From assembly GCA_001189275.1 (NCBI GenBank), contig CP012158.1, positions 124,001 through 188,000 on the forward strand: a stretch of 64,000 bases of DNA, written 5' to 3'. Below the pieces are notes generated by a model. It was given only the letters and a program-made list of their open reading frames with translations. It ran no database searches and was not told the origin of the DNA. The DNA comes from Pyrobaculum sp. WP30. GTDB lineage: Archaea > Thermoproteota > Thermoprotei > Thermoproteales > Thermoproteaceae. The translations under genes and the position numbers were made by a program. Numbering within the stretch: position 1 is the first letter of the stretch; every line of letters begins with the position of its first letter. Of this stretch, positions 12,927 to 16,518 are shown in pieces.

Positions 12927-13907
12927 TCATTTAAACAACGAGAAGAACTTATCCTCCACGTAGGGCTTTACGTATGTCCTCTCGCCGATCTTCACCAGGT
13001 AGTCGCCGCGCGGCGCCACCCGCCCGATGACTGAGTGAGACACGCCGACTTTCCTAAGCCTCTCCTCAGCCTCGGCGAGGCGGTCCGGCGGCACTGTGGC
13101 TATGAGCACGCCTGAGCTTAGGGTCTCCAGCGGGTCTATGCCGAAGGCCCTACACAACGCCTCCACCTCCGGGTACACGGTTACTCTGCCGGGGTCCGCC
13201 GCGATGGAGACGCCGGAGGCGTAAGCCACCTCGGCGAGCCCGTTGGCGAGGCCGCCCTCAGTGGGGTCGTGCATGGCTGTCGCCACATCAGCCAAGGCAA
13301 GCGCCTCCTTAGTCACGGAGATGCGGCGTATGAATTCCTTGGCCTTTTCCACAGCTGATCTGTCGACCCCCCGCCTCAGCGCCTCCTCCTCGAAGTCTGT
13401 GGCCAGTATCGACGCGGCCTCTTGCCCCGCCGACTTGGTCATTATCACGTAGTCGCCGGGCCTTGCGCCGGAGGTCGAGACGTAGCGGCTCCCCACCCCC
13501 ATCGCCGTGACGACGGCGAGCGGCCGGGCCACCGCAGTGGTGACCTCCGTGTGTCCCCCCACCACAGCCACCCCCAGCTCCCTCGCCGCGGAGTCCAGTT
13601 GCCCCGTGATCACGTCTAAAACCCCCTCGTCAGCCTCGGGGGGTAGGAAGACCGCCACGGAGAGCCACATGGGCTCGACCCCCCTCACGGCTACGTCGTT
13701 AGTGGGCACATACGCCGCCAGGTAGCCCAGCAGCTTCACGGATCCCGATATGGGGTCGGTGTGGACCGCCAGGTAGCGGCCCCCCAAGTCGATGATAGCC
13801 GCGTCTTCGCCCAAGGCGGGCCCCACCACGACCTCTTTCCTAAAAGCGCCGCGTCTGCCCCACACCAGACGCTCCAAGACCTCCGGCGGCACCTTGCCGA
13901 TTTTCAT
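12927..13907 (-). CDS. HypE/PurM-superfamily (AIR synthase-related) protein
   Basis: 326 residues with the two-domain AIR-synthase fold: VVVGPALGEDAAIIDLGGRYLAVHTDPISG (ATP/Mg aspartates), YVPTNDVAVRGVEP, VVGGHTEV, then VIMTKSAGQEA, MHDPTEGGLANGLAEVA and LSSGVLIATVP. The closest pattern is HypE of [NiFe]-hydrogenase maturation, but the C-terminal cysteine that HypE needs for thiocarboxamide formation is absent (it ends VEDKFFSLFK), and no other hyp gene is near. Probably an ATP-dependent enzyme of unknown substrate. Its ATG lies 27 bp from the start of the divergent aminotransferase-like gene, so the two promoters interlock. Confidence 0.75.
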   Translation of the reverse strand: MKIGKVPPEVLERLVWGRRGAFRKEVVVGPALGEDAAIIDLGGRYLAVHTDPISGSVKLLGYLAAYVPTNDVAVRGVEPMWLSVAVFLPPEADEGVLDVITGQLDSAARELGVAVVGGHTEVTTAVARPLAVVTAMGVGSRYVSTSGARPGDYVIMTKSAGQEAASILATDFEEEALRRGVDRSAVEKAKEFIRRISVTKEALALADVATAMHDPTEGGLANGLAEVAYASGVSIAADPGRVTVYPEVEALCRAFGIDPLETLSSGVLIATVPPDRLAEAEERLRKVGVSHSVIGRVAPRGDYLVKIGERTYVKPYVEDKFFSLFK

Positions 13908-13933
13908 TAATAGGGAGGTTTTCTCTCAGTTAA

Positions 13934-14836
13934 ATGGTTGACCTCAGCGGGAGGTGGGTAAAGATAGGCGACGCGGAGCTGGTGAAGTCGGTACACGAAG
14001 CCGTGGTGATCGAGTTTGGACACAAGGCCCTTCAGTACACAGACACGGCGGGGGCGCCGGAGCCCAGGAAGGAGTTGCAACGGCTCCTCGCGCGGGCGGG
14101 GCTCCCACGCCACGTCCCGCTGTTTACAACCAGCCTTGCAGACAGCCTCAGGCTGGTGGCGGCGGCGCATCTGGAGCGGGGGGAGTGCCTAGACGTGGAG
14201 GACCCAAGCCAGAGGGAGGCCCTTGTCTACGCCGCCTGTGGGAGGCCGAAGGCAGTTTACATACAGCCCCACTGGCGGAACCCAGACGGCCACATATACA
14301 GCGCGGAGGAGCTGAGGGCCGCCGCGTCGCGGGCGCCCCTAGTCGTGTACGACCTAACCTACGGCCTCCTCGCCGCCGAGGTGCCGGCGGTGGCCGAAGC
14401 CGCCGTGGTGGTGGTGGGGTCGCTTGACCCCCTCTTCCCCGGGTTGCACTTAGGCTTCGTGGCGGCGCCGGAGGAGCTGTTCCCCACCTACCTCGCCCTC
14501 CTGGAGGGCGCATATCTGCACCCGCCCACCTACATGCAGTACCTCTTCTACGTAGCTATGAAGACGAGGGCCATCGACGAGGTATTCGCCGTGCTCAGGA
14601 GGCGCGAGGCGTTGCTCCGCGCCTACTGTCCCGCCACGCCCTACTTCGCCTGGTGTAAGCCGCGCGACAAGACAAGATTTTTAAGGCTCGGCGCCATGGA
14701 GGGGAGTGTCTTCTCGGGGAGGGGACTCTTCGGGGAATACGTCAGGCTGGGCCTCACTAGTGCGACCGAGGAGGAGCTCGCAACCCTTCTATCCGGGGTT
14801 CCTCCAGAAGAACTTCAAGGTGGCGGCCATAGCTGA
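13934..14836 (+). CDS. aminotransferase-like protein (PLP fold type I) lacking the catalytic lysine
   Basis: 300 residues, about 100 shorter than typical Aro8/MocR-type aminotransferases. Recognisable landmarks: [34 protein letters not shown] (the conserved N-P-x-G), VVYDLTYG (PLP-pyridine Asp) and [13 protein letters not shown]. Where the family has G-S-F-S-K before L-x-PGLRxG, this protein reads [15 protein letters not shown]: the Schiff-base lysine is replaced and one residue is lost. It is therefore unlikely to transaminate; it might bind a ligand or act with the overlapping DUF99 gene (17 bp overlap). The start follows from a TATA-like element about 23 bp upstream. Confidence 0.7.
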
Positions 14837-15389
14837 GAGCTTCACCTTGAGCGACGGCTACTCGATCTACGCCGGCGTCTTGGCGAGGAGAGACGGCGCC
14901 GTGGAAGACGTGGCCCTCGCCACGGCGACTTTGGGCGGTACAGACGGCACCGAGACCGCCTCTAATATTCTAGACGCGCTTCTGAGACCAGATGTCGCCA
15001 TGGTCATGCTGGACGGGTGCGTCGTCTCCTTCTACAACTGGATCGATGGCGAGGAGTTGCGGCGCCGATACGGCAAACCGGTTGCCTGCTACGTCTTTGA
15101 GAAGCCGGAGGGCCGCGTGGAAGACGCCGTGAGGAAGCTCTTCCCCGACTGGCAGGCCAGGGTCGAGGCGCTGAGGAGACTGGGGCCCCCAACCCCCTAC
15201 TACACCAAGACGGGGTACAAGATATACGTGAGGTCCTGGGGCATAGATCCGGTAGACGCGGGCAAAGCCGCCGAGGCCTGCATGCGGTTCGGCAAGGTGC
15301 CGGAGCCCCTCCGCGTGGCCAAGATAATAGCGGCTGGGGCACGCCAATTTTTAAAAAAGGGGATCATCAAACACGTCAATGGTAACTAG
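14820..15389 (+). CDS. DUF99 (UPF0215) family protein, endonuclease V-like fold
   Basis: About 189 residues. [12 protein letters not shown]..., [29 protein letters not shown] and the C-terminal [34 protein letters not shown] are the conserved blocks of DUF99, which is structurally related to endonuclease V; its role is not known. The only plausible start is GTG 14820, 17 bp inside the aminotransferase-like gene, implying translational coupling. Its own 3' end overlaps the PotD-like gene by 11 bp. Confidence 0.8.
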
Positions 15390-16518
15390 AAGAAAACTAC
15401 TGGTCGCAATCGGTGCCGCGGCGGTGCTGGCGGCAGTAGGCGGGGGATTCATGCTCTTCAGGAGGGGGGGAGGCGCCGCGGCGCCGACGCAGACAACGGC
15501 GCGGGGCGGGGAGCTGGCCGTATACAACTACAGCTACTACATAGACAAGGAGCTTCTCCCTGAGTTTGAGAAGGAGCACGGCATAAAGGTGATCTACCAG
15601 GAGTTCGAGAGCGGCGAGGAGGCATACGCGGCGTTGCTGAGAGGAGGCGGTGGCTACGACCTCGTCGTGGTGCCCGACACCTACATCAGAGACGTGATAA
15701 AGAGGGGGCTTGTCAAGAGGATAGACCACAACAAGCTCTCCAACATAGGCAACGTGGACCCGGCGTTTTTCGATAACCCCAACGACCCGGGGCTCCAGTA
15801 CTCCGTCCCCTATGCCTTCGGCACTACGGGCTTCGCCGTCAACTACTACGCCATGAAGGCCGACCTCGGCAGAAGGCTGGACGGCTGGATCGACCTATTC
15901 GACTTAGGCATATTGGAGAAGATAAGGGGCGAGGTGGCGATGCTTGAGGAATTTACAGAGCCAATCATGGCCGCCAAATACGCCCTGGACATAGACTCAG
16001 ACGACTGGAGCGAGACCGCGGTTAATAGAGTTATTGAATTGCTCAAGAGGCAGAAGGACTACATAAGGGGCTACCTGGGCATCAGCCAGATCGTGCCCGC
16101 CATAGCCGCCGGCGAGCTTTGGGTGTCGCAGATATGGTCCGGCGACGCCGCCACGGCCCGGGACGAGTTCGTCAAAAACGCTGGCGAGCAACACGCCGAC
16201 AAGTTCGAATACGTGCTCCCAAAGCCCATGACCCACCGCTGGGTGGACCTTATGGTTATTCCGCGCGACGCGAAAAACGTGGAGGCGGCGTACCTGTTCG
16301 TAGACTTCTTGTTGCGGCCGGAGAACTCTGCCAGGGTAGTGAAGGCTTCCAACTACCCAACGCCTCTGAAGAGACAGCTCCTGGAGAGGTACCTAGACCC
16401 AGGCATCCTGCAGGACCCCACCGTGTTTCCGCCCCCCGAGGCGAAGCTGATACACCTCAACTACACCGACGAGATGCTCAAGGCCGTTGAGAGGATCAGC
16501 TACGCCGTGAAGGGCTGA
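15379..16518 (+). CDS. PotD-like ABC transporter substrate-binding protein (polyamine type)
   Basis: 379 residues. An N-terminal signal ([26 protein letters not shown]) contains twin arginines and is followed by a low-complexity linker, so it is exported and membrane-anchored. The mature part has the PotD pattern: [61 protein letters not shown] and a C-terminal [12 protein letters not shown]. Polyamines matter in hyperthermophiles, and spermidine/putrescine is the likely ligand. No permease or ATPase genes adjoin, so the transporter partner must be elsewhere. Convergent with the phosphatase gene, 23 bp overlap. Confidence 0.85.

Follow-up and report, generated by a model that had tools for sequence, protein, structure and literature searches.

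A gene at positions 13934 to 14836 of the window encodes a protein that is predicted to adopt the fold of a fold type I aminotransferase and that has no PLP lysine. We favour, with a probability of roughly 0.45, the reading that this pseudo-aminotransferase is a partner subunit without a PLP site, kept under purifying selection, and that the Endo_dU nuclease gene beginning within it has its own start and merely shares DNA with it. We infer that the pseudo-aminotransferase works by binding and not by catalysis. The window is the whole stretch of DNA that was analysed, 64,000 bases in length (bases 124001 to 188000 of a one-contig genome of 1,993,257 bases).

Identity, fold and distribution of the pseudo-aminotransferase

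The gene lies between an AIRS-domain gene on the opposite strand and the Endo_dU gene, which is followed by a PotD-like gene:

13934..14836, + strand: pseudo-aminotransferase gene, 300 aa, predicted fold type I, KAT-II/LysN-like, no PLP lysine (open reading frame, Pfam, AF2 model, PDB matches, seven genomes)
13908..13933, no strand: intergenic gap of 26 bp between the AIRS-domain gene and the start of the pseudo-aminotransferase gene (coordinates of the reading frames)
12927..13907, - strand: AIRS-domain (HypE/ThiL/SelD-like) gene, conserved neighbour (domain matches, synteny)
15379..16518, + strand: gene for a PotD-like solute-binding protein, neighbour (domain matches, synteny)

The open reading frame at 13934-14836 scored 18.5 bits against PF00155, below the curated Pfam cut-off of 19.7, and two of the seven orthologues matched this family at E<=0.01. 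When a profile of the pseudo-aminotransferase family was compared with the PDB, the best matches were the KAT-II/LysN-type structures 3aov, 1x0m, 1wst and 2egy (E 2.8e-9 to 5.6e-9). An AF2 model was built from an input of seven rows and reached a pLDDT of 72 and a pTM of 0.75, a middling confidence, with pLDDT running from 72 to 36 over the five models. Foldseek matched this model to aminotransferases (E 4.4e-12), and among the PDB matches listed by VIA, with Z up to 21.3 and an rmsd of 3.2 over 281 residues, most were named aminotransferases.

The likeness to the KAT-II/LysN (2-aminoadipate aminotransferase) group takes in both the fold and the LQY, D..Y and RL..T motifs, which are common to both. 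In contrast to these enzymes, the pseudo-aminotransferase has no PLP lysine, has an altered phosphate cup and is about 100 residues shorter. The first-pass annotation had called the gene shortened, and so it is, with 300 aa compared to about 390-430 in relatives. In the alignment, the shortening consists of N-terminal gaps, about 30 residues of the large domain and about 20 of the small domain.

The AIRS-domain and pseudo-aminotransferase genes diverge across the 26 bp between them, and their promoters probably overlap each other or run into the coding starts. The AIRS-domain protein matched models of HypE, ThiL and SelD, in each case below the cut-off of the model.

Orthologues were found in the window genome and in six other Pyrobaculum species, that is in seven of the 11 Pyrobaculum genomes. 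Full-length matches were present in 7 of the 45 genomes of the order and 7 of the 81 of the class, all in this one genus, and in the phylum sample full-length copies at E<=1e-12 were found in 7 of 398 genomes, all Pyrobaculum. At E<=1e-8 in the class, 30 of 81 genomes gave a match; besides the seven full-length ones, these were partial and lay mostly in frames of about 390-470 aa. At E<=0.001 in the order, 40 of 45 genomes gave a match, and in all but seven of these the matches were partial or remnant. A tblastn search of plasmids at E<=1e-5 gave no match, and a search of genome contigs returned two loci, both already within the set.

In two trees (support 100/99 and 100/100) the pseudoenzymes formed one clade, whose stem is very long (2.35 and 3.05), with the sister group not resolved. 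The first tree had 44 rows, after removal of any second copy of a locus and of seven loci that were duplicate or partial; eight of these rows sat on long end branches, some of them perhaps wrong frames chosen by the longest-frame rule. The second tree had 35 rows, nine rows of the first being excluded. This topology fits a single origin of the pseudo-aminotransferase, in Pyrobaculum or just before the genus.

The cofactor site and possible uses of the fold

The residues that bear on cofactor and ligand binding lie at the following positions:

14033..14038, + strand: Gln34-Tyr35, by motif KAT-II Gln73-Tyr74 (both invariant in the seven)
14279..14290, + strand: NPDG with N116, the Asn202 equivalent (Asn in 5/7 orthologues, Cys or Asp in the other two)
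14351..14362, + strand: DLTY with the Asp230 (D140) and Tyr233 equivalents, kept (7/7)
14417..14461, + strand: 15-residue loop, residues 162-176, the Ser-Lys...Arg loop of active enzymes, with Lys missing and the Ser262 and Arg270 equivalents changed (alignment)

We aligned the seven orthologues with 11 active relatives from the order. The Lys263 column is a gap in all seven pseudoenzymes and Lys in all 11 active relatives; the gap may sit one column off, and either placement leaves the seven without Lys. A 13-residue stretch of the pseudoenzyme loop is one residue shorter than STASKIFSPGLRLG of the active relatives. The first-pass annotation had reported the Schiff-base lysine as lost from the window protein. 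This is correct and the loss is not local, and a local mutation or sequencing error was rejected as its cause, since the one-column gap is common to all seven orthologues. The same annotation had 15 residues replacing the lysine motif; the lysine is indeed gone at 14417-14461, but through a one-column gap and without replacement.

The PLP contacts of human KAT-II named in one report are Gly116, Ser117, Gln118, Tyr142, Asn202, Asp230, Pro232, Tyr233, Ser262, Lys263 and Arg270 (PMC4848902). We assigned these numbers to the pseudoenzymes by motif, without aligning the human protein. Besides Lys263, the equivalents of Ser117, Gln118, Tyr142, Pro232, Ser262 and Arg270 are gone in 7/7, the Arg270 column holding His, Gln or Ala, and the Gly116 equivalent is changed in six of the seven. 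Also gone in all seven is the equivalent of Ser260, which we take to be a further KAT-II PLP contact. Across the alignment (n=7), the phosphate cup of KAT-II (Gly116, Ser117, Gln118, Ser262 and Arg270) is not intact in any of the pseudoenzymes. The earlier view that NPxG and the PLP aspartate remain describes the window protein well, with N116 in NPDG and D140 both present, but the NPxG Asn is gone in two of the seven orthologues. Nor can the PLP site be taken as otherwise intact: the defect is wider than the lysine, with six more KAT-II contacts absent in 7/7, while the Asp and the Tyr stay. Judged by these alignments, binding of PLP in the normal manner is very improbable for the pseudoenzyme.

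Lysine-less PMP dehydratases exist, namely ColD and its kin, and ColD has a His in place of the Lys. The window protein might likewise still depend on PLP or PMP and catalyse a reaction in the absence of the lysine. The Asp and Tyr at the PLP ring are kept in all seven orthologues and the Asn in five, and the residue beside the lysine gap is His in one orthologue (G028). We consider such an enzyme very improbable, as the phosphate cup (S117, Q118, S262, R270) and the stacking Tyr142 are gone in 7/7 and the residue beside the gap is Asp in all six remaining sequences.

The residues that face a neighbouring subunit or the ligand fared differently. Gln73-Tyr74 of KAT2 are described as contributed by the opposite subunit and as holding the ligand (PMC6629613), and KAT-II Arg399 is described as binding the ligand (PMC4926479, PMC6629613). 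The Arg399 equivalent is Arg in six of the seven pseudoenzymes and Lys in the seventh (G036). We favour a partner subunit because the trans-acting segment is kept and the cofactor site in cis is lost, which is the pattern of LCB1. In one account LCB1, without the lysine and other residues, is predicted to form part of the single site of serine palmitoyltransferase (PMC3794620).

The pseudo-aminotransferase is a genus-specific relative of the KAT-II/LysN-like enzymes that has lost the PLP lysine, a single codon, and most of the cofactor cup while keeping the predicted fold. In the mechanism that we propose, it would dimerise with one of the cell's active class I aminotransferases, with the KAT-II/LysN-like paralogue as the first candidate, and would present its conserved Gln-Tyr segment to the active site of the partner, the part ascribed to LCB1 beside LCB2 in serine palmitoyltransferase. 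Endo_dU would be read from its own TATA-like box and GTG, and its N-terminal arm would have arisen there out of frame. LCB1/SPTLC1, too, has the PLP fold and lacks the lysine, while its cell contains a homologue that carries one, and two features expected of an LCB1-like subunit are found in the pseudoenzyme, the lost lysine and the retained Gln-Tyr residues that act in trans in KAT2 (7/7). Unlike LCB1, the pseudo-aminotransferase comes from another subfamily, is dispensable in its genus and has a truncated chain.

Three or more PF00155 matches were found in each of the seven pseudoenzyme genomes, and likewise in the four without an intact copy. The possible partners are narrowed by G036 (96% complete), a pseudoenzyme genome in which no more than three PF00155 matches were found. 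In those genomes in which this was checked, the KAT-II/LysN-like paralogues were the closest in sequence to the pseudoenzyme. At least two of the genomes that have no intact pseudoenzyme (G030 and G033) do have a KAT-II-like paralogue, and the paralogue therefore cannot need the pseudoenzyme everywhere. Against a pure donor in trans, the kept Asp230 and Tyr233 equivalents sit in the protein's own pocket, where they would be superfluous unless structural.

The Gln-Tyr segment is at the dimer interface, and a homodimer would keep it too. A PLP-free homodimer standing alone, which would serve as a sensor or carrier and bind another small ligand in its old cleft (an amino acid, a keto acid or a nucleotide), is a real possibility and nearly as likely as the partner subunit. 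Sixty-one columns are invariant in six pseudoenzymes (the near-copy G035 excluded) and not common to at least 8 of the 11 active enzymes; these pseudoenzyme-only columns include W114, R115, H196 and Y200 and speak for the homodimer. The retained Asp230, Tyr233 and Arg399 equivalents also suit this alternative, but no ligand can be named, and the Arg399 equivalent is not strictly conserved and falls in the overlap, where a second frame also constrains the DNA.

An Endo_dU gene that seems to start inside its neighbour

The nuclease gene and the features around its start are these:

14706..15389, + strand: Endo_dU (DUF99, PF01949) gene with a probable GTG start (PF01949 E 1.6e-50; comparison of loci)
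14678..14684, + strand: putative TATA-like box TTTTTAA within the pseudo-aminotransferase gene, 28 nt upstream of GTG 14706 (TTTAA in 7/7; spacing)
14706..14836, + strand: probable overlap of the pseudo-aminotransferase and Endo_dU genes, in different frames, 131 bp (lower synonymous change; +1 frame test)
14706..14807, + strand: putative N-terminal arm of Endo_dU, 34 codons ahead of KNFK, predicted disordered (seen only in Pyrobaculum here)

The Endo_dU protein scored 171.5 bits against PF01949, above the cut-off of 32.7, and its family matched the AF_1433 structure 2qh9 (E 1.7e-11). Cleavage of DNA 3' of deoxyuridine is reported for other members of the family (PMC11585767). The first strand reads AIAESF in Pyrobaculum Endo_dU (14820-14850) and GIDDSF in AF_1433, with different acidic residues.

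The most likely start of the gene, judged by comparison of the loci, is GTG 14706, which gives an overlap of 131 bp with the pseudo-aminotransferase gene. The first-pass annotation had put this overlap at 17 bp, which we revise: a start at GTG 14820 was rejected because it would cut away the conserved FLQKNFK. KNF(K/R) is conserved in the sister genus as well, where SWLQKNFR (or KDFR) directly follows an ATG; four of five loci were recovered for this comparison, and their frames extend further upstream, the ATG start there being inferred. A start at GTG 14760, within SLVR, is less likely: G027 has CTG at this codon, and the sole in-frame start listed ahead of KNFK in that genome is the far GTG. 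The far GTG stands 34 codons ahead of KNFK in the seven pseudoenzyme genomes (30 codons in G036) and in G034. Compared to the rest of the Endo_dU (DUF99) family, Pyrobaculum members carry an N-terminal arm of 22-34 residues, as judged by the probable starts, which overlaps the pseudo-aminotransferase gene wherever that gene exists.

The TTTAA box is conserved in 7/7, compared to 0.8-7.6% per species expected from synonymous choice alone, and the distance from its first T to the Endo_dU GTG is 25-26 nt in the seven pseudoenzyme genomes and in G034. TTTTTAA occurs 16 times in the window (1.9 expected), and a start codon lies 25-30 nt downstream of 8 of these 16 sites (7 of 15 without the box at 14678), compared to 7% of random positions; only start codons of ORFs with 80 aa or more were counted. 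Pyrobaculum aerophilum is reported to have many leaderless transcripts (PMC7531240, citing Slupska 2001). From the conservation and spacing of the box, Endo_dU seems to have its own promoter and a leaderless GTG start within the 3' end of the pseudo-aminotransferase gene. A scan of 13800-15500 for bacterial-type promoters, which covers no archaeal promoters, found nothing, as expected in an archaeon. TTTTTAA could also serve to correct gene starts genome-wide.

A similar architecture is seen next door: the last 11 bp of Endo_dU (15379-15389) also belong to the PotD-like gene, and a TTTTTAA box at 15348, within Endo_dU, stands 31 nt before the ATG of the PotD-like gene.

Constraint, absence and a probable second coding frame

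The first-pass annotation had regarded the gene as a maintained, non-catalytic one rather than a dying one. Its proposed comparison of orthologues supports this, with the lysine lost in 7/7 and no orthologue that has it. Nonsynonymous change, which had been named as a possible sign of decay, is the highest of four genes at the locus and still not much out of keeping with them. For G029-G035, which are a close pair, dN/dS (NG86) was 0.21 at a dS of 0.16, compared to 0.20 for the PotD-like gene, 0.09 for the AIRS gene and 0.06 for the Endo_dU core. Across the 21 pairs, dN/dS was 0.07-0.40 in the 16 with computable dS, values that are rough, since dS exceeded 1 in every pair except G029-G035. Mean pN/pS was 0.40 for the pseudo-aminotransferase, 0.39 for the Endo_dU core, 0.27 for AIRS (six of the seven species) and 0.26 for the PotD-like gene. 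The pseudo-aminotransferase evolves fastest of the four genes, yet is clearly constrained.

The gene is nonetheless dispensable within Pyrobaculum, being missing from three genomes and decayed in one. The three (G030, G031 and G033) have the AIRS gene directly beside Endo_dU. In the fourth, G034 (74% complete), the frame of the pseudo-aminotransferase copy is broken and that of Endo_dU intact; by blastn against the window gene this remnant gave E 4.6e-18 and 79.7 bits, compared to at most 28.3 bits in 20 shuffles. A remnant in G031 is weak (E 1.7e-4, 31.9 bits compared to 25.6 in shuffles), and blastn found none in G030 or G033, where a past pseudo-aminotransferase is suggested by the nuclease arm and synteny. 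A tree of the neighbour genes (without an AIRS protein for G036 and a PotD-like protein for G033) has two changes of presence or absence, of which well-supported branches force only one, the backbone being unresolved.

An alternative is a gene on its way out, whose frame stays open mainly for the sake of the Endo_dU promoter and start in its 3' end. Absence or decay in 4 of 11 genomes, the decayed G034 copy beside an intact Endo_dU frame and the lower synonymous change in the overlap all agree with it. We think it unlikely, because the first 248 codons, ahead of the box and the overlap, are themselves constrained (dN/dS 0.21 in G029-G035), because invariant blocks such as ALQYTD lie far from the overlap in the orthologue alignment (n=7), and because the gene is a single open frame in 7/7 orthologues.

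The region shared with Endo_dU carries signs of a second coding frame. Under simulated synonymous recoding of the aminotransferase-like frame, the +1 frame stayed open in 6-16% of draws, and an open +1 frame, the GTG and WxSLVR occurred together in at most 0.05% of draws in each of the seven species. There were 2000 draws per species, with codon use taken from the gene itself plus the three longest frames per locus; since G029 and G035 hardly differ from each other, the test comprises about six cases, related to one another. Mean pS per counting window was 0.39-0.46 in the overlap and 0.44-0.47 around the box, compared to 0.54-0.74 in the rest of the pseudo-aminotransferase gene; the two windows between box and overlap had 0.57 and 0.61.

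The arm persists in the four Pyrobaculum genomes without an intact pseudo-aminotransferase. Three of them have W-x-S-L-V-R/Q or W-A-P-L-V-R, and G033 has WLSALA. The pseudoenzyme frame of G034 is altered at the counterparts of T275, S276 and T278, and its nuclease frame has WVSLVRQK intact. Over 20 codons in the Endo_dU frame, variability at third, first and second positions was 0.22, 0.12 and 0.29 with the pseudoenzyme and 0.61, 0.45 and 0.43 without an intact one. A strong role of the arm is disfavoured because the nuclease core is much less variable at first and second positions (0.17 and 0.14 in the genomes that lack an intact pseudoenzyme) than the arm. Outside the WxSLVR part the arm appears weakly conserved, and its residues 1-29 are below pLDDT 50 in the AF2 model of Endo_dU. 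The aminotransferase frame is taken as the older one because 12 of its residues can be aligned to MRLNFT...E, a motif of the active enzymes. From these comparisons, the arm is most likely an extension that Pyrobaculum gained through overprinting.

The first-pass annotation had also proposed that the pseudoenzyme is paired with the endonuclease V-like protein. The two genes are adjacent and overlapping in all seven genomes that have both intact, as a working partnership in DNA repair might predict, but we hold such a partnership to be the least credible of the alternatives. Endo_dU remains in all four Pyrobaculum genomes without an intact pseudoenzyme, and we see no functional pairing because there is no joint loss among Pyrobaculum. 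The nuclease is order-wide (41 of 45 genomes) and the pseudoenzyme is not; it seemingly has its own promoter; and close packing is found next door too, in the 11-bp overlap with the PotD-like gene. The overlap is shared DNA and not evidence of a common function. The partner subunit that we favour could be extended to a joint picture, in which a cofactor-free protein serves a live archaeal aminotransferase as a donor in trans and the DNA of its substrate Arg codes out of frame for a functional arm of the dU-endonuclease that outlives the gene; that all of this would hold together is rather doubtful.

To our knowledge, PLP-fold pseudoenzymes with conserved lysine loss are few and best known from eukaryotes (LCB1). 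PLP-fold proteins without the lysine are known as such, LCB1 being one named by the authors of the B6 database (PMC2748086), and we found no paper on the Pyrobaculum pseudo-aminotransferase in the openly licensed PMC literature. The putatively overprinted nuclease arm is the more unusual part of the locus. Accounts of bacterial and viral overprinted genes describe new coding sequence that arises in another frame of an older gene (PMC2268670, PMC4683798); in contrast, the sequence here is archaeal and would form the end of a protein that is itself old, an arm that survives the loss of the older gene.

The locus carries a warning for archaea with leaderless transcripts, in which a start that lies within a neighbouring gene is easily placed too far downstream. 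It also offers a natural experiment in overprinting, in which the second frame may be compared with the first frame alive, decayed and gone. The same one-genus series, with seven genomes that have the protein, one in which its gene has decayed and three without it, would allow the use of a cofactor-free aminotransferase fold to be tested.
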